Part shown: piece by piece, positions 38,192 through 48,094 of the stretch
How positions within the stretch are numbered: the stretch's first letter is position 1
How the letters are laid out: each line of letters begins with the position of its first letter
Source: Sphaerisporangium corydalis
GTDB taxonomy: Bacteria > Actinomycetota > Actinomycetes > Streptosporangiales > Streptosporangiaceae
Direction of reading: 5' to 3'
DNA length: 64,000 nt
NCBI RefSeq assembly: GCF_025506355.1
Contig: NZ_JANZYP010000026.1
Coordinates: 40,237-104,236, forward strand
Notes under the pieces: generated by a model
Databases searched by the model: none
What the model was told of the DNA's origin: nothing
Seen by the model: only the letters and a program-made list of their open reading frames with translations
Made by a program: the position numbers and the translations under genes

Positions 38192-41071
38192 TCAGCTGCA
38201 GCCGCTGGTGCTGCCGCAGCCCTCGCAGACGTAGCAGCTGCCGGCGGGCCGCATCTTGGTGCCGCAGGTCATGCAGAGCGGGGCGTCGGCCGTGCGGCCC
38301 TCGTGGCTTTCCAGGGCCGCCGCGGAGCCGTTCGGCCGCGAGGAGACCACCGGGGCGGACGGCACGCCGGCGGCGGGCGTCTCCACGGTGTTCCCCGAGG
38401 ACCGCTTCTCGGGCTTGTCCTCGGACTTGTCCTCGATCGGGGCGGACTGGGCGAGCGCCGCGGTGTCGATGATGACCTCCTGCGGCGCCCCCGGGTTCTC
38501 GCCGCGCTGCTGCGCCGCCCGCTCGGCCGCCGAGAAGACGCCGAGGGCCGCCCGCTCGTCGTACGGCAGGTGGTCCAGGGCCAGGCGGCGGAAGATGTAG
38601 TCCACCACCGAGGCGGCCATGCGGACGTCCGGGTCGTCGGTCATGCCGGCCGGCTCGAACCGCATGTTCACGAACTTGCTGACGAAGGTGTCCAGCGGGA
38701 CCCCGTACTGCAGGCCCACGGAGATCGCGACCGAGAAGGCGTCCATGACGCCGGCCAGGGTCGAGCCCTGCTTGGACATCTTCAGGAAGACCTCGCCGAG
38801 GCCGTCGTCGGGGTAGGACGACGCCGTCATGTACCCCTTGGCGCCGCCCACGGTGAAGCGTGTCGTGGTGCTCGGCCGCTGGTTCGGCAGGCGCCGGCGC
38901 TTGGGCTTGGGCACCTCGACGACCTGGACGACCGGCGCCGTCGCCTTCTCCTCGGTGCGCTTGGAGATCGACAGCGGCTGCCCGACCTTGCAGTTGTCGC
39001 GGTAGACCGCGAGGGCCTTCAGGCCGAGCTTCCAGCCTTCGAGGTACACCTGCTCGATGTCCTCGACGGCGGCCGACTCGGGCAGGTTGACCGTCTTGGA
39101 GATGGCGCCCGACAGGAACGGCTGGGTGGCCGCCATCATGCGGACGTGCCCCATCGGGGCGATGGCCCGCTCGCCCATGGCGCAGTCGAACACCTCGTAG
39201 TGCTCGGGCCGCAGCCCGGGGGCCGCCATGACGTGACCGTGCTCGGCGATGTACTCGACGATGGCCTCGACCTGCTCGGGCTGGTAGCCGAGCTGCCTGA
39301 GCGCCCTCGGGATGGTCTGGTTGACGATCTGCATCGACCCGCCGCCGACGAGCTTCTTGAACTTCACCAGGGCCAGGTCGGGCTCGATGCCGGTGGTGTC
39401 GCAGTCCATCATCAGGCCGATGGTGCCGGTCGGGGCGAGCAGCGAGGCCTGCGCGTTGCGGTAGCCGTGCTTCTCACCGAGGCGCAGGCACTCCTGCCAC
39501 TGCTTGGTCGCCTCCGACAGGATCGGCCGGTCGAGGGAGTCGTTGGGCCGCAGGTCGTCGCCGGCGGCGGCGTGCTTGCGCATCACCCGCTTGTGCGGCT
39601 CGGCGTTGCGCTTGTAGCCGTCGTAGGGCCCGACGATCGCGGCCAGCTCGGCGCTGCGGCGGTAGGAGACGCCGGTCATCAGGCTGGTGATGGCCGCCGC
39701 GACCGACCGGCCGCCGTCGGAGTCGTAGGCGTGGCCGGTGGCCATCAGCAGCGCACCGAGGTTGGCGTAGCCGATGCCGAGCTGGCGGAATGCGCGCGTG
39801 GTCTCGGCGATCTTCGGGGTCGGGAAGTCGGCGAAGGTGATCGAGATGTCCATCGCGGTGATGATCAGCTCGGTGAGCCGGACGAAGCCCTCGACGTCGA
39901 AGGTGTCGTCGTCGCGCAGAAACTTCATCAGGTTGATGCTGGCGAGGTTGCACGAGGAGTTGTCCAGGTGGACGTACTCCGAGCACGGGTTGGAGGCGGT
40001 GATCCGGCCGGACTCCGGGCAGGTGTGCCAGTCGTTGATCGTGTCGTCGTACTGGACGCCGGGGTCGGCGCACTCCCAGGCGGCCGTGGACATCTTGCGG
40101 AACAGCGACCGGGCGTCGATCTCCTCGATCACCTCGCCGGTCAGCCGTGCCCGGAGGCCGAACTTGGCGTCCGACTCGACGGCGCGCATGAACTCGTCGG
40201 AGACCCGGACGGAGTTGTTGGCGTTCTGGTACTGCACCGAGACGATGTCCCTGCCGCCGAGGTCCATGTCGAACCCGGCGTCGCGCAGCGCGCGGATCTT
40301 GTCCTCCTCGCGCGCCTTGGTCTCGATGAACTCCTCGATGTCGGGGTGGTCGACGTCCAGGACGACCATCTTGGCGGCCCGGCGGGTCGCGCCGCCCGAC
40401 TTGATCGTGCCGGCCGAGGCGTCGGCGCCGCGCATGAACGACACCGGGCCGCTGGCCGTGCCGCCGCTCGACAGCAGCTCCTTGCTGGAGCGGATGCGCG
40501 ACAGGTTGACCCCGGAGCCGGAGCCGCCCTTGAAGATCACGCCCTCTTCCTTGTACCACTCGAGGATGGACTCCATCTGGTCGTCCACCGCGAGGATGAA
40601 GCACGCGGACACCTGCTGGGGCGAGGCGGTGCCGACGTTGAACCAGACCGGCGAGTTGAAGCTGAACACCTGGTGGATCAGGGCGTGCTTCAGCTCGTGG
40701 TCGAAGATCTCGGCGTCCTCCTCGGAGGCGAAATAGCCGTTCTCGCGGCCCGTGCGGGTGTACACGCCGACCACCCGGTCGACGAGCTGCCGCAGGCTCA
40801 CCTCGCGCTGCGGCGTGCCGACGGCGCCGCGGAAGTACTTGGTGGTCACGATGTTGGCCGCGTTGACCGACCAGGAGTCGGGGAACTCGACGCCGCGCTG
40901 CTCGAAGTTGACCGAGCCGTCCCGCCAGTTCGTCATGACGACGTCACGATGCTCCCAGCGCACCAGGTCGTACGGGTGCACGCCGGGCGTGGTGTGGATG
41001 CGCTTCATCTTCAGGCCTTTGTGGGGCCTTTTGCCCCCGCGCCCCACTGAGCCACTCACCGTCTCCGTCAT
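38192..41071 (-). CDS. nrdJ: Vitamin B12-dependent ribonucleotide reductase, class II
   Basis: Adenosylcobalamin-dependent ribonucleoside-diphosphate reductase (959 aa) that makes deoxynucleotides with or without oxygen. The active-site pattern is complete: QVSACFILAVDD (first redox Cys), NPCSEYVHLDNSSCNL (radical Cys loop) and GSGSGVNLSRIRSSKE. The C terminus has a Cys cluster (CMTCGTKM, then CYVCEGCGS) that includes the redox-shuttle cysteines and a zinc-ribbon look. Length is normal for actinobacteria, so there is no intein. It lies 130 bases behind nrdR on the same strand. No cobalamin riboswitch was recognised in front of it. Confidence 0.96.
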   Translation of the reverse strand: MTETVSGSVGRGGKRPHKGLKMKRIHTTPGVHPYDLVRWEHRDVVMTNWRDGSVNFEQRGVEFPDSWSVNAANIVTTKYFRGAVGTPQREVSLRQLVDRVVGVYTRTGRENGYFASEEDAEIFDHELKHALIHQVFSFNSPVWFNVGTASPQQVSACFILAVDDQMESILEWYKEEGVIFKGGSGSGVNLSRIRSSKELLSSGGTASGPVSFMRGADASAGTIKSGGATRRAAKMVVLDVDHPDIEEFIETKAREEDKIRALRDAGFDMDLGGRDIVSVQYQNANNSVRVSDEFMRAVESDAKFGLRARLTGEVIEEIDARSLFRKMSTAAWECADPGVQYDDTINDWHTCPESGRITASNPCSEYVHLDNSSCNLASINLMKFLRDDDTFDVEGFVRLTELIITAMDISITFADFPTPKIAETTRAFRQLGIGYANLGALLMATGHAYDSDGGRSVAAAITSLMTGVSYRRSAELAAIVGPYDGYKRNAEPHKRVMRKHAAAGDDLRPNDSLDRPILSEATKQWQECLRLGEKHGYRNAQASLLAPTGTIGLMMDCDTTGIEPDLALVKFKKLVGGGSMQIVNQTIPRALRQLGYQPEQVEAIVEYIAEHGHVMAAPGLRPEHYEVFDCAMGERAIAPMGHVRMMAATQPFLSGAISKTVNLPESAAVEDIEQVYLEGWKLGLKALAVYRDNCKVGQPLSISKRTEEKATAPVVQVVEVPKPKRRRLPNQRPSTTTRFTVGGAKGYMTASSYPDDGLGEVFLKMSKQGSTLAGVMDAFSVAISVGLQYGVPLDTFVSKFVNMRFEPAGMTDDPDVRMAASVVDYIFRRLALDHLPYDERAALGVFSAAERAAQQRGENPGAPQEVIIDTAALAQSAPIEDKSEDKPEKRSSGNTVETPAAGVPSAPVVSSRPNGSAAALESHEGRTADAPLCMTCGTKMRPAGSCYVCEGCGSTSGCS

Positions 41072-41201
41072 GGTCCTCCCCCTTCCGGGGCTCCAAGGAG
41101 CCCTTGTGTCCGAAACACTTCAAAGCGCCGTTCGCATCCCCGGCGCCGGGGCCCGGCACGGCCCCTGGCCTGCTCGGGCCCGCCGGGTGTTCGCTGTCCG
41201 T

Positions 41202-41663
41202 TCAGTCTTCTTTGACGGCCCGCGCCGCCCGTAGCTGCTCGATCTCCTCTTCGAAGTCGGCGAGGGTCTCGAAGCCGCGGTACACCGAGGCGAAGCGCAG
41301 GTAGGCCACCTCGTCCAGCTCGCGCAGCGGCCCGAGGATCGCCAGCCCCACCTGGTGGGCCGGGATCTCCGCCGAACCGGTCGCCCGGATGCTCTCCTCG
41401 ACGCGCTGGCCGAGCTGCGCCAGCGAGTCCTCGCTGACGGGCCGGCCCTGGCAGGCACGGCGCACGCCGGCGATCACCTTGTCCCGCGAGAACGCCTCGG
41501 TCACCCCGCTGCGCTTGCTCACCATCAGCAGGACGGTCTCCTGGGTGGTGAACCGGCGCCCGCACTCAGGGCAGGTGCGCCGGCGGCGGATCGCCGCGCC
41601 GTCTTCGGTGGAACGGCTGTCGATGACCCGCGTGTCCGGATGACGACAGAATGGGCAATGCAC
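41202..41663 (-). CDS. nrdR: Transcriptional repressor NrdR
   Basis: A 153-residue repressor of ribonucleotide reductase genes. The zinc ribbon uses Cys3, Cys6, Cys31 and Cys34 (MHCPFCRH, then [11 protein letters not shown]). An ATP-cone domain ([24 protein letters not shown]) senses ATP/dATP. First gene of the nrdR-nrdJ unit; a pair of NrdR-box-like sites lies upstream, so it is probably autoregulated. Confidence 0.96.
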
Positions 41664-41854
41664 GCGTCGCCTCCCTTTTCTCGCGGCTCCCAGGAGTTAC
41701 GCCGGCGCGCCCTCGAATGCCGAGGTCCCCGGGGCGCCGACCCCAGGGGAAAATGCCGCCATATGTTTCGCATTCCACGCGCTTTTCGCCCTTCCCAACT
41801 AAACGGGAATAGGCGTACGCACGCACTGCGGTCTTCCCCAGTGCGGTGACGGAA

Positions 41855-41902
41855 ACACAACCTATGGTGAGCCCACATCGGTGTAACTACTAGATGTTGT
41901 GG
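41855..41902 (-). promoter_or_regulatory. Pair of NrdR boxes before nrdR-nrdJ
   Basis: ACACAACCTATGGTGA (41855-41870) matches the NrdR-box consensus at about 12 of 16 positions. On the minus strand, CCACAACATCTAGTAG (41887-41902) matches at about 11 of 16. Centres are 32 bp apart, three helical turns, as usual for NrdR box pairs. Confidence 0.7.
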
Positions 41903-41973
41903 TCTCTAACCGTAGGAGGGCCGCACCATGAACGCAAGTCGGCAAGGGGTCCCCTACTGAAACCGGCCGCCCA

Positions 41974-42165
41974 TCAGGGCGAACGGACCTCGCCCGGCGT
42001 GTCGCGGCCCGCCGGCCCGCGCCGCCGCCGCCGGGCGGGGCGGCCGTCCACATGCCGGATCGCTCGCGTGATCGACTTCCGGCGTCCCTCAGGCATAAGA
42101 TCAGAAAGTCGAACACGATATCGATCGAACTCCCGTACGATGTCCTTCACCGGACGGTCCGACAT
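41974..42165 (-). CDS. Small basic protein, 63 aa, in the nrdR-lexA gap
   Basis: ORF starting MSDRPVKDIVREFDRYRV; the first 40 residues look protein-like with mixed codon use, the rest is Arg/Pro/Gly-rich. No family recognised. A LexA-box-like sequence lies 13 bases upstream of its ATG and is shared with lexA. In mycobacteria and corynebacteria the same position, between lexA and nrdR, holds an SOS-induced cell-division regulator, but no LysM or membrane segment is visible here. Ribosome site weak. Confidence 0.35.
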   Translation of the reverse strand: MSDRPVKDIVREFDRYRVRLSDLMPEGRRKSITRAIRHVDGRPARRRRRGPAGRDTPGEVRSP

Positions 42166-42217
42166 TACGGTGAGTCTCGAACAACTGTTTGATGACGATC
42201 TTGAACGGAGCTATTGT
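42126..42217 (+). promoter_or_regulatory. lexA promoter with LexA (SOS) boxes
   Basis: -35 TTGATG (42189-42194) and -10 TATTGT (42212-42217) are 17 bp apart. A box CGAACaactGTTTG (42178-42191) overlaps the -35 and differs from the actinobacterial consensus CGAACNNNNGTTCG at one base. A second one-mismatch box CGAACtcccGTACG lies at 42126-42139. This fits LexA autorepression. Confidence 0.8.
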
Positions 42218-42310
42218 CGCTGTGTGCGACATCAGGAATACAGACCGGGAGCCGGCCGGGCGGGCACGGCGTGACGGAGCGCCTCACGGGCGCCCGGCGA
42301 GGAGGAGCAT

Positions 42311-43024
42311 ATGAGCGAGCAGGACGAGGTCGGCACGGTCGTGAGCGATCTGGCGGTGCGCCGGCGCGACTCCCTGGGCCTGACCCCACGGCAGCGCAAG
42401 ATCCTTGAGGTGATCCGCGATTCGGTGCAGCAGCGCGGTTATCCGCCCTCCATGCGAGAGATCGGCGAGGCCGTCCAGCTCACCAGCACCTCCAGCGTCT
42501 CCCACCAGCTGACCGCCCTGCAGCGCAAGGGCTACCTGCGCCGCGACCCGCACCGGCCGCGCGCGCTGGAGGTCCGCCTGCCCGGCGAGCCGGCCCTGTG
42601 GGTCGACCCGGTCGGGCCCGGCGAGGAGGAGCAGCTGATCAGCCGCCCTACGGCCACGTTCGTCCCGCTGGTCGGGCGCATCGCCGCCGGTGGTCCCATC
42701 CTGGCCGAGGAGCGCGTCGAGGACGTCTTCGCCCTGCCCAAGCAGCTGGTCGGCGAGGGCACGCTCTTCCTGCTCCAGGTCGCCGGTGACTCGATGATCG
42801 AGGCCGCCATCGCCGACGGCGACTGGGTCGTCGTGCGCCAGCAGCCGGTGGCCGACAACGGCGACATCGTCGCGGCCATGATCGACGGCGAGGCCACGGT
42901 GAAGACGTTCAAGCGCAAGGACGGCCACGTCTGGCTGGTCCCGCACAACGCCAACTACGACCCGATCCCCGGCGACGAGGCCACCGTGCTCGGCAAGGTC
43001 GTGGCGGTCCTGCGCAAGCTCTGA
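42311..43024 (+). CDS. lexA: SOS repressor LexA
   Basis: A 237-residue repressor and self-cleaving serine protease. The winged HTH lies at residues 25-85 ([28 protein letters not shown]). The cleavage site is Ala126-Gly127 (RIAAGG), the catalytic Ser161 is in GDSM, and Lys198 in ATVKTF. GGAGGAG precedes the ATG. It represses DNA-repair genes until RecA filaments trigger cleavage. LexA boxes lie on its own promoter. Confidence 0.97.
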
Positions 43025-43106: not shown

Positions 43107-43146
43107 CCTGACCTGTTGATAGCGGTACCGCTATCAACAGGTCAGG
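43107..43146. terminator. 40-bp perfect palindrome, bidirectional terminator
   Basis: Each strand reads CCTGACCTGTTGATAGCGGT followed by its exact complement, 20 bp per arm with no loop. It covers the stop codon of leuS (43142-43144) and lies 83 bases past lexA, so it can end transcripts from both sides. Confidence 0.8.
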
Positions 43147-45604
43147 GGACGATGTTGACGAGCTTGGGGGCGCGGACGATGACCTTGCGGGGGGTGCCGT
43201 CCAGGTGGAAGCGGACCTTCTCGGAGGCCAGGGCCAGCTCCTCCAGTTCCTGCGCGGTGATCGACGGGGACACCTCCAGGCGGTCCCGCACCTTGCCCGC
43301 CACCTGCACGACGCAGGTGACCGACTCCTGCACCAGCAGCGACGGCTCGGCCACCGGCCAGCCCGCCCGGGCCACCGACGGCGGCTGCCCCAGCCGCTCC
43401 CAGCCCTCCTCGGCCACGTACGGCGCGACCAGCGACAGCATGACGGCCAGCGTCTCCGCGGCCTCGCGCACGGCCGGGTCGGCCGCGCCGGGACCGGAGT
43501 CGATGGCCTTGCGTGCCGCCGAGGTCAGCTCCATCATGCGGGCGACCGCCACGTTGAAGCGGTAGGAGTCGACCAGCCGGGTGACCTCGTCGATCGTGCG
43601 GTGGACGACCTTGCGCAGCTCCAGGTCGCCGGTCGCGGTGTCCACGCCGGGGGCCGACGCCGCGCCGGCCTCCGCCATGACGCGGAAGGCCCGGGCCAGG
43701 AACTTCTGCGAGGCCGCGGCGGACACGTCCGCCCAGTCGATGTCGTCCTCGGGCGGACCCGCGAAGACCATGGTCAGGCGGACCGCGTCGACGCCGAACG
43801 CGTCGATCTGCTCGCCCAGGTCGACGCCGTTGCCCAGCGACTTGGACATGGACTTGCCCTGGTTGATCACCTGGCCCTGGTTCAGCAGCCGCTCGAACGG
43901 CTCGGTGAAGTCGACCATGCCCATGTCGTGCAGGACCTTGGTGAAGAACCGGGAGTACAGCAGGTGGAGCACGGCGTGCTCCACGCCGCCGACGTACTGG
44001 TCGATCGGCCCCCACAGCCTGACCTTGTCGACGTCGAACGCGCCGTCCTCGAAGCCCGGCGAGCAGTAACGCAGGAAGTACCACGAGGAGTCGACGAAGG
44101 TGTCCATCGTGTCGGTGTCCCGCTTGGCGGGGCCATCGCACTTGGGGCACGCGACGTTGACCCACTCGGTCGCGCTCGCCAGGGGCGAGACGCCCTTCGG
44201 GGACAGCGCCTCGCCGCGCAGGTCGGGCAGCGTCACCGGCAGCTGGTCGTCCGGGACGGGGACCTCTCCGCAGTCGGCGCAGTGGATGATCGGGATCGGG
44301 GTGCCCCAGAACCGCTGGCGGGACAGCAGCCAGTCGCGCAGCCGGTAGTTGACGGCGCCGGCGCCCGTGCCGCGCTCCGCCAGGATGCCGATGATCCGGG
44401 GGATGGCCTCGGCCTTGGTCAGGCCGTCCAGCGGACCGGAGTTGACCATGGTGCCCTCGCCGGCGGTGGCGACGCCGGTCTCCCCGGGGTCGGCCATCCC
44501 GGTGTGCAGGACCACCCGCACGGGCAGCTCGAACTTCATGGCGAAGTCCAGGTCGCGCTGGTCGTGCGCGGGCACGGCCATGATCGCGCCGTGCCCGTAG
44601 TCGGACAGGACGTAGTCGGCGGCCCAGACCGGGATGCGCTCGCCGTTCACCGGGTTCACGGCGTACCGGCCCAGGAAGACGCCGGTCTTGTCCTTGTCGG
44701 TGGACAGCCGCTCGATGTCGCTCAGCTTGGCGACCTCGGCGCGGTAGGCCTCGAAGTCCGAGAACCGCTCGGGGTCGCAGATCTCCTCGGCCAGCGGCGC
44801 GTCGACGGCGACCACGAAGAACGTCGCGCCGTACAGGGTGTCGGGGCGGGTGGTGTAGACCGTGACCGGCTCGTCGCGGCCCTCGATCTCGAACCGGACG
44901 TCGGCGCCCTCGGACCGGCCGATCCAGTTGCGCTGCATGGTCAGCACGCGGTCGGGCCAGCCGCCCTCCAGCCGCGCCATGTCGTCCAGCAGCCGGTCGG
45001 CGTAGTCAGTGATCTTGAAGTACCACTGGGTCAGCTCACGCCGGATGACCTCGGACCCGCAGCGCTCACACCGGCCGGCGACGACCTGCTCGTTCGCCAG
45101 CACGGTCTGGTCCTTCGGGCACCAGTTGACCAGGCCGCCCTTGCGGTAGGCCAGGCCGCGCTCGAAGAAGCGGTTGAACAGCCACTGGTTCCAGCGGTAG
45201 TACTCCGGGTCGCTGGTGTGCAGGCGCCGCGACCAGTCGAAGGAGATCGCGTACCTCTTGAAGGAGGTGGCCTGGGTCTCGATGTTGGCGTAGGTCCACT
45301 CGGCGGGGTGCGCGTTCCGCTTGATCGCGGCGTTCTCCGCGGGCAGGCCGAAGGAGTCCCAGCCGATGGGGTGCAGCACGTTGTACCCGCGCTGGAACCA
45401 GTAGCGGGCGACGACGTCGGCGATCGCGAAGACCTCGCCGTGACCCATGTGGAGGTCACCGGAAGGGTAGGGGAACATGTCGAGCATGTACCTGCGGGGA
45501 CGCTCGTCCCCGGCGTCCTCGACCGCCCGGAAGGGGTCCAGTTCCTCCCACCGCGGCTGCCATTTCGCCTGCAGCGCCTGCGGATCGTACTGCTCGTCAC
45601 TCAC
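43142..45604 (-). CDS. leuS: Leucyl-tRNA synthetase
   Basis: Class I aminoacyl-tRNA synthetase (820 aa) that charges tRNA-Leu. The HIGH motif is HMGH at residues 52-55 ([13 protein letters not shown]) and the KMSKS motif is SMSKS near residue 585 ([10 protein letters not shown]). The editing domain (CP1) lies around 220-420. Zinc-binding cysteine pairs CERCG and CPKCDG are visible. GTG start at 45604 with GAGGGA upstream. A ribosome-mediated attenuator with a Leu-rich leader peptide precedes it. Confidence 0.97.
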
Positions 45605-45648
45605 GGCCCATGTCCCTCGGTTGGCTCAGCGCGGATGGCTCGACCAAT

Positions 45649-45713
45649 AAAGAAACCCCCCGTGTGCACGAGGGGCAGCCGCGTCGACCGCTGTCTCAGC
45701 TCAGTCGACGCGG
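45649..45713 (-). promoter_or_regulatory. leuS transcription attenuator: hairpin and intrinsic terminator
   Basis: Reading the minus strand, a 10-bp perfect stem (CCGCGTCGAC / GTCGACGCGG; 45704-45713 and 45679-45688) overlaps the end of a leader peptide gene. A terminator follows: CCCCTCGTG pairs with CACGGGGGG (45675-45656), then TTTCTTT (45655-45649). A real U tract is rare in this genome, which supports a regulated terminator. Confidence 0.82.
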
Positions 45714-45743
45714 CCCGCTAAGAAGCAGGGTGCTGCCACGCAT
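45696..45743 (-). CDS. leuS leader peptide
   Basis: 15 codons, MRGSTLLLSGPRRLS, with three leucine codons in a row (CTG CTT CTT). A -10-like TACCCT (45750-45755) ends six bases before the ATG, so the transcript may be leaderless. Stalling at the Leu codons when charged tRNA-Leu is short would let the following RNA fold differently and spare leuS from termination. Confidence 0.75.
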   Translation of the reverse strand: MRGSTLLLSGPRRLS

Positions 45744-45943
45744 AGCCCAAGGGTAGCGCAGGGGACAATCGGTCTTCGTCTCGTTTCCCCCGCTCCCCTG
45801 GTGGGCCGGGAAAAACGGCCATCTTGCCATCCGATGGTGATAGATCCGTTGTGACCTCGTATGTCCCTTTAGATTACTCTTTCGCCGTGGTGAACTCGTC
45901 TGAAGAGGAACGCGGCCAGGATTTCGCGGAGGAGGGCCTGCCC
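45744..45943. other. Divergent gap between leuS leader and Pro/Gln-rich gene
   Basis: Holds the leuS -10 (45750-45755). On the plus strand there is a possible TTGTGA / TAGATT pair (45849-45854 and 45870-45875, spacer only 15). An in-frame TTG at 45824 could extend the next gene by 40 residues but lacks a ribosome site. Confidence 0.35.
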
Positions 45944-48094
45944 ATGCAGGACCCGCCGACCGATCCGACCGGCTTGCAGTTCCGCGGGGCTTTCTCCTAT
46001 TCTCCTGCGGACCCCCCCGCTTCGCATGAGATCATGCCGAGCACCCCCAATCCGGGCATGATGTCGGGAGGTTCGCCAGCGATGGCCCCTGAGTACGACA
46101 ACCGGTCCACGCGACCTCCCGCGTGGCCGGAGAACCCCCCCGCATGGCCGGAAATGCCCCCTCCGCCACCCCCCCCGCCCCCCCCCCCGGGGGTGGGGGC
46201 CGCCTCGGTCTTCGAGCCGCTCCCGTACGGCAGCCGCGCCGCCGCCGACCCGCAGTCGTCCTGGGACTCCACCCAGCAGTACGCGCCGGTCGCCTCGCTG
46301 GACCCCGCGCAGCAGTACGCCCCCCAGCAGGCCGCGCCGACCTCGTTCCCGCCGCCGGCCGCCTCTCCCGCGTCCCCGTTCGCCCCGCAGCCGACCGGCC
46401 CGCAGCCCGGTGGAACCGGACCTCAGCACTACACGCCGCAGCCGACGGGCCCGCAGCAGTACACCTCGCAGCCGTCCCCGGCCGGCCCGCAGCACTACGC
46501 CCCGCAGCCGGGCGCGCCCACCGGCCCCCAGCACAGCGGCCCGACCACGGGACCCCAGTCCGGCGGCCCTGACACGGGCCCGCAGTCCGGCGGCTCGTAC
46601 GCCGGTCCGCAGTCCGGCCCCCAGCCCACCGGGCCGCACTACGCTCCCCAGCCGTACACCCCGCAGGCCACCGGCCCGCAGCAGCCGCCCTCCTCGGGAC
46701 CGCAGCGGTTCTCCCAGCACGGCCCGACGACCGGGCCCCAGAACCAGCGGCAACAGCCTCCCGTGACGGGCCCCGGCGGGTTCCCGCAGCAGCCGCCGGC
46801 GACCGGCCCGCAGCAGTTCCCGCAGGACGCGGTGCGCCGGCAGGCCGACGGCAGGCAGTTCCCCGAGGCCCCGGCGCAGCCCCACCAGTTCCAGGAGGGC
46901 GCCGCGCCCGCCTACGTCCCGCCCGGCACCGAGACGACCGTCCGGGTGTCCGCCCACATGGCGGCTCCGGCACGCCAGGCCCCGCCCGGCCCGCAGGCGC
47001 AACCCGGTCAGCCGGGGCAGCAGCCCGGCCAGCCGGGACAGCCCGGTCCGATGGGGCAACCCGGCCAACAGCAACCCGGCCAGCAGCGGCCAGGCCAGAT
47101 GGGGCCCGGCCAGATGGGGCCGTCCGAGCAGCAGGCCTCCCCCGGGCGCCGGGCGCGACGCTCGGTGGGGCCCTCGAACGAGCCCGCCGACCCCTACAAG
47201 CCGTTCGTCACCGCCGGTCAGATCAGCGGTCCGAAGACGCCGCCGCCCGAGCGCCAGCAGGAGCTGTGGAACACCGTCTTCGGCGACAACTACGAGGCGA
47301 TCGGCGAGGAGGGCGAGGAGGCCGGGCACGGCAAGCGGGTCTGGCTGTTCGCCCTGATCGCCTCGGTGGTGGTCGCCCTGCTCGCGGCCCTGCTGTGGGC
47401 GTTCCTCGCGGGCCCGCTCCGCCCGGCGGCCGAGGAGACCGCGGCGGGCGGCGACGGCGGTGCCAAGAGCACGCCGAAGTCCACCTCGACCGGCAAGGCC
47501 GGCACCGGCACGACCAAGTCGCAGTCCGCCAGCCGGCTCCCGAAGTACACCGGCACCGCCTCGCCGCGCGCCGGGACGCTGACCGACAAGGCGTCGTCCA
47601 TCAGCCTGGCCCGGCTCGGCGGCCCGTGGCAGCTCGACCTGCGGTCCCAGCACGTGCGTACCACCTACGGCTTCGAGACCCGCCAGTACGTCGCGGCGGG
47701 CAGCGACACCGCGGGCACCCCGCAGTTCGCCCAGGTGATGACCGGCCCGCTCGCCCAGAACCTGGCAACCAAGTACTCCTCGGCCGCCCCGGACAAGCTC
47801 GCCCCGGTGATCAGCTCGGTGGCCTTCGCGGCGCGCAACAAGTTCTTCCCCGACGGCAACAAGGTGGTGAAGACCGCCGAGCAGCGCCTGTCGGCCGGCG
47901 GCCGTCCCGCGCGCGTGGTGGCGTACCAGATCCTCACGGGGACGGCCAAGACCACGCTGGTGGTGGGCGCGGTGAGCACCGGCGCCGACCTGCCGGTGAT
48001 CGTCTACATGTCGGTGCCGGACAGCAAGAAGGCGCTCCTGCCCGACATCAACACCGTGTTCTCCTCGATCCGCCCCACCGCCCCGGCCTCCTGA
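45944..48094 (+). CDS. Pro/Gln-rich single-pass membrane protein, unknown
   Basis: A 716-residue protein. Residues 1-440 are low-complexity, rich in Pro, Gln and Gly, with many TGPQ repeats and a run of 11 prolines near residue 75-85. One transmembrane helix lies at about 466-490 (VWLFALIASVVVALLAALLWAFLAG), followed by a Ser/Thr/Lys linker and an approximately 170-residue extracytoplasmic domain (LGGPWQLDLRSQHVRTTYGFETRQYV). The layout resembles actinobacterial proteins with disordered cytoplasmic tails tied to cell-envelope or division work. Function unknown. The ATG at 45944 has GGAGGAGGG at ideal distance. The proline run is encoded by C8-G-C11-G5, prone to slippage. Confidence 0.82.
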   Translation: MQDPPTDPTGLQFRGAFSYSPADPPASHEIMPSTPNPGMMSGGSPAMAPEYDNRSTRPPAWPENPPAWPEMPPPPPPPPPPPGVGAASVFEPLPYGSRAAADPQSSWDSTQQYAPVASLDPAQQYAPQQAAPTSFPPPAASPASPFAPQPTGPQPGGTGPQHYTPQPTGPQQYTSQPSPAGPQHYAPQPGAPTGPQHSGPTTGPQSGGPDTGPQSGGSYAGPQSGPQPTGPHYAPQPYTPQATGPQQPPSSGPQRFSQHGPTTGPQNQRQQPPVTGPGGFPQQPPATGPQQFPQDAVRRQADGRQFPEAPAQPHQFQEGAAPAYVPPGTETTVRVSAHMAAPARQAPPGPQAQPGQPGQQPGQPGQPGPMGQPGQQQPGQQRPGQMGPGQMGPSEQQASPGRRARRSVGPSNEPADPYKPFVTAGQISGPKTPPPERQQELWNTVFGDNYEAIGEEGEEAGHGKRVWLFALIASVVVALLAALLWAFLAGPLRPAAEETAAGGDGGAKSTPKSTSTGKAGTGTTKSQSASRLPKYTGTASPRAGTLTDKASSISLARLGGPWQLDLRSQHVRTTYGFETRQYVAAGSDTAGTPQFAQVMTGPLAQNLATKYSSAAPDKLAPVISSVAFAARNKFFPDGNKVVKTAEQRLSAGGRPARVVAYQILTGTAKTTLVVGAVSTGADLPVIVYMSVPDSKKALLPDINTVFSSIRPTAPAS

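Follow-up and report, generated by a model that had tools for sequence, protein, structure and literature searches.

The leuS gene of Sphaerisporangium corydalis is preceded by a short open reading frame (ORF) with consecutive Leu codons and by a hairpin with a T-rich tail, which raises the question of whether and how the supply of charged Leu-tRNA controls leucyl-tRNA synthetase. We analyzed this locus in its window (the whole stretch of 64,000 nucleotides) and in related genomes. The leuS leader is most likely a ribosome-mediated transcription attenuator that acts on a predicted leaderless transcript. Its parts in the window are as follows.

45750..45760, minus strand: extended -10 promoter TGCGC-TACCCT, recognized from sequence; the predicted transcription start is the A of the leader ATG
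45696..45743, minus strand: leader ORF MRGSTLLLSGPRRLS followed by TGA, 15 codons, with the ATG at 45743
45720..45728, minus strand: putative regulatory Leu codons CTG CTT CTT; of these, the final CTT at 45722-45720 is near-invariant
45704..45714, minus strand: 5' arm of hairpin P1, with its CCGC starting at a distance of 6 nt from the last Leu codon
45678..45688, minus strand: 3' arm of hairpin P1; it ends 1 nt ahead of the terminator
45655..45676, minus strand: intrinsic terminator stem-loop of 9 bp (6 G-C) with a loop of 4
45647..45654, minus strand: T-rich terminator tail TTCTTTATT
43142..45604, minus strand: leuS, leucyl-tRNA synthetase, the putatively regulated gene (TIGR00396 935 bits, cut-off 548)

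The leader reads ATG CGT GGC AGC ACC CTG CTT CTT AGC GGG CCG CGT CGA CTG AGC TGA. The original prediction of a 15-codon ORF with CTG CTT CTT was borne out by this reading (ORF at 45743-45696, Leu codons at 45728-45720), as was that of a -10 element six bases upstream of the ATG (hexamer TACCCT at 45755-45750, spacing 6 nt). The hairpin with a T-rich tail expected ahead of leuS was located at 45676-45655, with the tail TTCTTTATT; the gap between the terminator stem and the leuS GTG measured 50 nt instead of the 45 bases given earlier. A 10-bp stem overlapping the stop codon had also been described; the 5' arm of P1 does overlap the end of the ORF, but the stem comprises 11 bp and the stop codon (45698-45696) lies in its loop.

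The leader and leuS, which follows it directly, are both encoded on the minus strand. On the opposite side of the leader lies a plus-strand ORF (45824..48094), whose product is proline/glutamine-rich and gave no Pfam match at E 1e-8. Genes for class II ribonucleotide reductase, NrdR, and LexA, assigned by Pfam, adjoin leuS at 38192..43024 of the window. A scan of positions 44000-47000 returned three terminator-like sites, with 0.6 expected, and the terminator of the leuS leader had the longest stem among them. The stretch 45605-45743 folded better than 196 of 200 shuffled sequences (z -2.46). Both strands of the window contained a single match, the leuS leader itself, to a rule demanding TANNNT, a spacing of 4-9 nt, ATG or GTG, and an ORF of 7-30 codons with an early Leu-Leu-Leu. 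Because this match is the only one in the window and its layout is conserved in related genomes, the leuS leader is more than a chance arrangement. ARAGORN found no tRNA genes in the window, and the plasmid collection searched gave no match.

Related loci were the best 80 of 589 leuS loci from one scan of genome contigs, the closest named ones among them belonging to Sphaerisporangium species (88-90% identity). A leader was called where TANNNT was followed after 5-7 nt by ATG or GTG and an ORF with at least two consecutive Leu codons; at loci with several candidate ORFs, preference was given to a CCG no more than 14 nt past the Leu run. By this rule, 55 of the 80 loci carry a leader, which together with that of the window gives 56 leaders. 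At least three consecutive Leu codons are present in 52 of them, and in all 56 a stem of 6 bp or more is followed by three or more T within the next nine bases (five or more T in 51 leaders, three or four in 5). Alignment of related leuS upstream regions, suggested with the original prediction, therefore revealed a conserved Leu run and terminator in 55 of 80 relatives plus the window, rather than the leaders devoid of Leu codons or terminator that would have been at odds with attenuation. The 25 loci without a leader by this rule included all eight Nocardiopsis loci as well as loci from Thermobifida, Streptomonospora, Microbispora, Planotetraspora, Kocuria, and some Arthrobacter; one of the 25, L013, is cut off inside leuS and is uninformative. 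In another set of 18 loci (L081-L098, the window's own included), the leader was present in 15. Since some genomes occur in both collections (L085 = L001, L090 = L002, and L094 = L034), the counts of the two sets are kept separate. One of these loci, L098 (G016:C325), has a Leu-run leader, MRARLLLRRPH, ahead of a longer, divergent LeuRS type. Two LeuRS-like genes per genome were seen at G013:C124:22515-27871 (L093, L102), where the divergent type adjoins the usual one, and at G257:C36 and C58 (L250, L253).

A covariance model of the leuS leader (R1), whose E-values are rough, matched at 66 bits or more at the leuS positions of 11 of 11 genomes of the genus. At E up to 0.01, it matched 175 of 296 genomes drawn from the class, a figure that cannot be read as the number of leuS leaders, given that sibling elements are detected by R1 as well. 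The genes downstream of 70 R1 places in the class, namely the 30 best matches plus a selection of 40 weaker ones from the list, were LeuS in 37 cases (30 of the 30 best and 7 of the 40 weaker), citramalate synthase in 26, ilvB in 6, and a LeuA-like gene in 1. Outside the class, R1 matched in 8 genomes of a draw of 296 genomes from the phylum, ahead of LeuS in three, ilvB in three, and a LeuA-like gene in one; the remaining match (L260) has an unrelated gene downstream and is probably false. Genome G488 contains two near-identical R1 places, L258, which is cut by the contig end, and L259.

Relic leaders were recognized at the Microbispora locus L004, the Planotetraspora locus L035, and L237-L240 (four of four examined in one related genus). 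In these loci the promoter hexamer and its surroundings are kept, and the start codon and third Leu codon are gone. Apart from L004 and L035, the rows used were those in which the promoter motif was found, namely L237-L240 together with L246, whose leader is intact. No R1 match was obtained for L004 up to E 1, or at leuS for L237-L240 up to E 0.01. Only L035 retains a recognizable terminator stem (R1 26 bits), and it lacks the T tract. The genomes of L237-L240 retain leaders ahead of citramalate synthase (L151, L155, L157, and L158). For the most part, the components of the leuS leader disappeared jointly, which would be expected of parts that function as a unit.

Next to its distribution, we considered the structure of the leader RNA. 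A hand-chosen alignment of 32 leaders from the order and near relatives (A1) contained compensatory changes in 7 of 11 P1 pairs and, for the main helix of the terminator, in 3 of 8 pairs, and 96.3% of its cells pair. None of 500 shuffles reached the observed values on four of five measures, including pairing, compensatory changes, and score; the fifth, the number of pair types, was not above the shuffles. When the partner was slid by 1-3 columns, pairing fell to 39-57%. These covariation, shuffle, and sliding results indicate that P1 and the terminator are RNA structures kept by selection.

The position of P1 relative to the Leu run is equally constrained. The tetramer located 6 nt past the last Leu codon, in the 5' arm of P1, is CCGC in 50 of 56 leaders, CCAC in 5, and CCGT in 1; the finding is the tetramer at that place, as the offset of 6 in the output is set by the procedure itself and is not evidence. 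The stop codon is the second codon past the Leu run in 32 leaders, where it is always TAG, and the ORF reads on in the other 24 of 56. The constant tetramer and the variable stop indicate that the stall site would be fixed relative to P1, with the end of translation left free. Hairpin P1 is separated from the terminator by 1 nt in 29 of 32 leaders of A1 and in 39 of 45 of alignment A2. As judged from these alignments, the leuS leader has a rigid, newly described layout, in which the last Leu codon is followed after 6 nt by P1, and P1, usually after 1 nt, by the terminator.

Codon choice within the Leu run is also uneven. In 54 of 56 leaders the Leu run ends on CTT, whereas CTT accounts for 2.6% of the 3802 Leu codons in the same leuS genes; this contrast is large, but no meaningful formal probability can be attached to it, the sequences being related. 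A terminal CTT is uniform across all members in 23 of 25 groups, defined by our own labels as genera, single MAGs, and the window. CTT is decoded by the Leu tRNA with anticodon GAG. Rare Leu codons are the classical sensitive regulatory codons of the Salmonella leu leader, as reported in PMC1183508.

The promoter was examined for signs of a leaderless transcript. In 54 of the 56 leaders, 6 nt separate TANNNT from the start codon (5 and 7 nt in one each), and TGCG plus one base precedes the hexamer in 46. No conserved -35 element was found in the 56 leaders, in which the best candidates match 1-4 of 6 bases, and a scan of 44000-47000 in the window returned no sigma-70 promoter. In Streptomyces lividans, the distance from the -10 element to the transcription start averages 6.3 nt, and the leader LeuL2 ahead of leuS is reported to be leaderless (PMC8079986). 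The 6-nt spacing, taken with this average and with LeuL2, suggests that the transcript of the leuS leader is likely leaderless, with its start predicted at the A of the ATG, in support of the idea of a leaderless leader peptide put forward originally.

The sibling elements detected by R1 share this architecture. In the window's own genome, a second R1 match (E 1.2e-5) lies ahead of the gene for citramalate synthase, cimA (TIGR00977 586 bits, cut-off 450), and the leader there was located as follows.

L112:1501-1595 (G000:C111:31777-31871), minus strand: citramalate synthase leader MFYGLLIISRRAG

Two sub-threshold Rfam matches in L112 (RF02502 over the leader, E 0.031, and RF01356 elsewhere, E 0.14) were taken as chance. 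Citramalate synthase leaders have the layout of the leuS leader with Ile codons in place of the Leu run (e.g., ALIIT and RLIIIS). Besides being seen in the genome of the window, the cimA-type leader was verified in a total of 62 genomes from the class. Two Ile codons occur shortly upstream of GCGC in 59 of 62 distinct regions from the 62 genomes of the class draw; the two patterns used for cimA leaders differ on a few rows, one missing L164, L178, and L219 and the other L152, L164, and L219. At least one of the Ile codons is the rare ATT in 51 of these 59 leaders, compared with 3.7% ATT among 807 Ile codons in the genes themselves. Alignment A3, which holds 26 of 27 cimA leaders (L158, a near copy of L155, was left out), showed compensatory changes in 6 of 10 P1 pairs and 5 of 10 terminator pairs, and 0 of 500 shuffles reached the observed values on four of five measures. 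The P1-terminator gap is 1 nt in 23 of 26 leaders, the other three being without the closing P1 pair.

A second model, R2, built from citramalate synthase leaders, matched 206 of 296 genomes of the class draw, which is an upper figure because R2 also finds leuS leaders. All 50 R2 places examined for their position (the 30 best and 20 hand-picked) lie ahead of citramalate synthase. Each of the 11 genomes of the genus gave an R2 match of at least 80 bits, the position ahead of citramalate synthase being verified in the window's own genome. A third type of leader, with Ile-Leu-Val codons and the layout of the leuS leader, precedes ilvB and accounts for 6 of the 40 weaker R1 places. The window's own genome contains one of these as well.

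L263 (G000:C111), 256 nt ahead of the codons for a GIPGGAILP motif: ilvB-type leader MRITRDSIAGLIRARLDGVVLRRRAGR

In MRITRDSIAGLIRARLDGVVLRRRAGR, GTA GTA CTT is followed by 6 nt, CGCG, and then a hairpin and a T-tailed terminator, the hairpins being judged by eye. The leader codons follow the downstream gene, since they are Leu at leuS, Ile at cimA, and Ile-Leu-Val at ilvB.

The conserved parts allow a mechanism to be proposed. Transcription would start at the A of the leader ATG, and the ribosome would accordingly enter the nascent RNA directly. With plentiful Leu-tRNA, the ribosome would translate all 15 codons and come off the RNA; P1 would then form, and transcription would end at the terminator. 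A shortage of Leu-tRNA would stall the ribosome at the final codon of the Leu run, the rare CUU, from where it would cover about 12 nt downstream and bury the 5' arm of P1. The freed 3' arm of P1 may then disturb the 5' arm of the terminator during its synthesis, so that transcription would enter leuS. A ribosome is reported to cover 12 nt downstream (PMC4833913). Such a cover would reach the 5' arm of P1 from the last Leu codon and would leave the arm free from the first Leu codon.

We folded the leaders in alternative states, as had been suggested for the original prediction. To represent a stalled ribosome, the mask on the RNA extended 12 nt beyond the last Leu codon; for a released one, it stopped at that codon. 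The lack of P1 pairing in the masked state is a product of the mask itself and was not used as evidence. In the folding set, L164 was skipped and L170 was left out. At equilibrium, the completed terminator formed equally well with and without the stalled ribosome (0.96 and 0.95), and the switch must therefore be kinetic or assisted. Before the 3' arm of the terminator was made, its 5' arm was paired elsewhere at 0.47 in the stalled and 0.29 in the released state of the 56 leuS leaders, rising by more than 0.1 upon stalling in 35 of 56 and falling in 4. The corresponding value was 0.21 for a stall at the first Leu codon and 0.35 without a mask. In 26 cimA leaders, sequestration of the terminator arm rose from 0.27 in the released to 0.43 in the stalled state (15 up, 0 down), and six ilvB leaders showed no such rise (0.27 to 0.29). 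The greater sequestration of the terminator arm in the stalled state speaks for attenuation at leuS, and the unchanged finished terminator at equilibrium speaks against it, as do the 25 of 80 loci lacking a leader by the above rule and the five terminators with a T-poor tail.

Whether this sequestration reflects a dedicated antiterminator was addressed by swapping in P1 segments from distant relatives. Foreign segments sequestered the terminator arm nearly as well as natural ones (0.44 versus 0.47); the natural segment exceeded the swapped mean in 27 of 56 leaders and gave a larger stall effect in 31 of 56. Because of this near-equality, no specifically co-evolved antiterminator was seen over the 56 leaders in this folding. 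Termination after P1 is blocked could thus be prevented by a weak, fast-forming competitor or by the loss of help from P1.

The latter would dispense with a dedicated antiterminator altogether, in that a foldable P1 would aid termination and a stalled ribosome would remove this aid. The 1-nt distance between P1 and terminator (seen in 39 of 45 leuS and 23 of 26 cimA leaders), the lack of a co-evolved antiterminator over the set, and the retention of the terminator in both states at equilibrium all point in this direction. We nevertheless regard it as rather unlikely, as the natural P1 segment of the window outdoes all 15 swapped segments in sequestering the terminator arm, which is the behavior of a true antiterminator, and antiterminators are drawn for Streptomyces leaders in PMC1262725.

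A leader that senses nothing is improbable in view of the Leu codons at leuS, the Ile codons at cimA, and the fixed spacing between codons and P1, which would be unexpected without sensing. The terminator would in that case cut leuS expression by a fixed factor, and the ORF would have no sensing role; the replacement of regulatory codons in the Streptomyces coelicolor ilv leader, reported to have had no effect (PMC1262725), fits such a constitutive leader and counts against the attenuation reading of leuS. A terminator ahead of an aminoacyl-tRNA synthetase gene could also belong to a T-box or other riboswitch sensing tRNA or leucine directly. This is hardly conceivable here, given that no Rfam family matched the window at the gathering score or 45560-45800 at E up to 1, and that the leader is short, half of it being ORF. 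Ribosome-mediated attenuation, in which the position of the ribosome on the Leu codons would decide the fate of the transcript, is the reading that we favor.

The leuS attenuator itself is not new, since classical leuS attenuators were predicted in Streptomyces avermitilis and S. coelicolor (Seliverstov et al., 2005; PMC1262725) and leuL2 was described ahead of leuS in S. lividans TK24 from RNA-seq in 2021, LeuL2 being reported as leaderless (PMC8079986). What is new is its range, its layout, the CTT bias, and the cimA sibling. The Streptomyces attenuator resembles that of the window in its short ORF with three Leu codons (LeuL2, MRAVRLLLSEPR), its hairpin, and its U-stretch terminator; the leader of the window differs in having 15 codons, in belonging to another family, and in that its transcription start is a predicted one. 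Enteric trp and leu attenuators share the predicted stalling at cognate codons, followed by hairpins and a terminator, and the enteric leu leader also shares the rare Leu codons (PMC1183508). In contrast to these, the leader of the window is predicted to be leaderless and has two conserved hairpins and no clear 2:3 antiterminator, although one feature of the classical 1:2 hairpin is present, in that the 5' arm of P1 sits where a stalled ribosome would cover it.

Among actinobacterial leaders, those of ilvL type (PMC1262725 and PMC8079986) have the same layout, with Ile, Leu, and Val codons and another downstream gene. The LEU element of leuA shares a Leu-run leader peptide in Actinobacteria but is described as a pseudoknot, one stem of which pairs with the Shine-Dalgarno sequence of leuA (PMC1262725), whereas the leader of the window precedes leuS and not leuA. 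The leuA leader of S. lividans is said to be without a typical terminator (PMC8079986). Our search found no earlier report of a cimA attenuator in literature that mostly left subscription journals uncovered, so that an earlier report is possible, and neither cimA nor citramalate is mentioned in the main texts of PMC1262725 and PMC8079986. Going by this literature, the citramalate synthase branch is new.

For the leuS case alone, the present analysis confirms and widens a published prediction. We tentatively suggest a wider reading, which we consider possible rather than probable, in which Actinomycetota possess an ancient leaderless module that the leuS leader represents as one of several copies. 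This module would be built on a fixed ruler of cognate codons, the last of them rare and with U in third position, followed by 6 nt, P1, 1 nt, and the terminator, would work by occlusion of P1 without a dedicated antiterminator hairpin, and would have been re-aimed by codon swap, to Leu at leuS and leuA, Ile at citramalate synthase (the new cimA branch), and Ile-Leu-Val at ilvB. If this is true, a leaderless RNA can support transcription attenuation from its first nucleotide onward, perhaps with no classical antiterminator involved, and the position of the sensor, a rare CUU or AUU codon whose distance to P1 is constant, would be directly testable. One translation-based device would then set branched-chain amino-acid supply in Actinomycetes through leuS, citramalate synthase, ilvB, and leuA.
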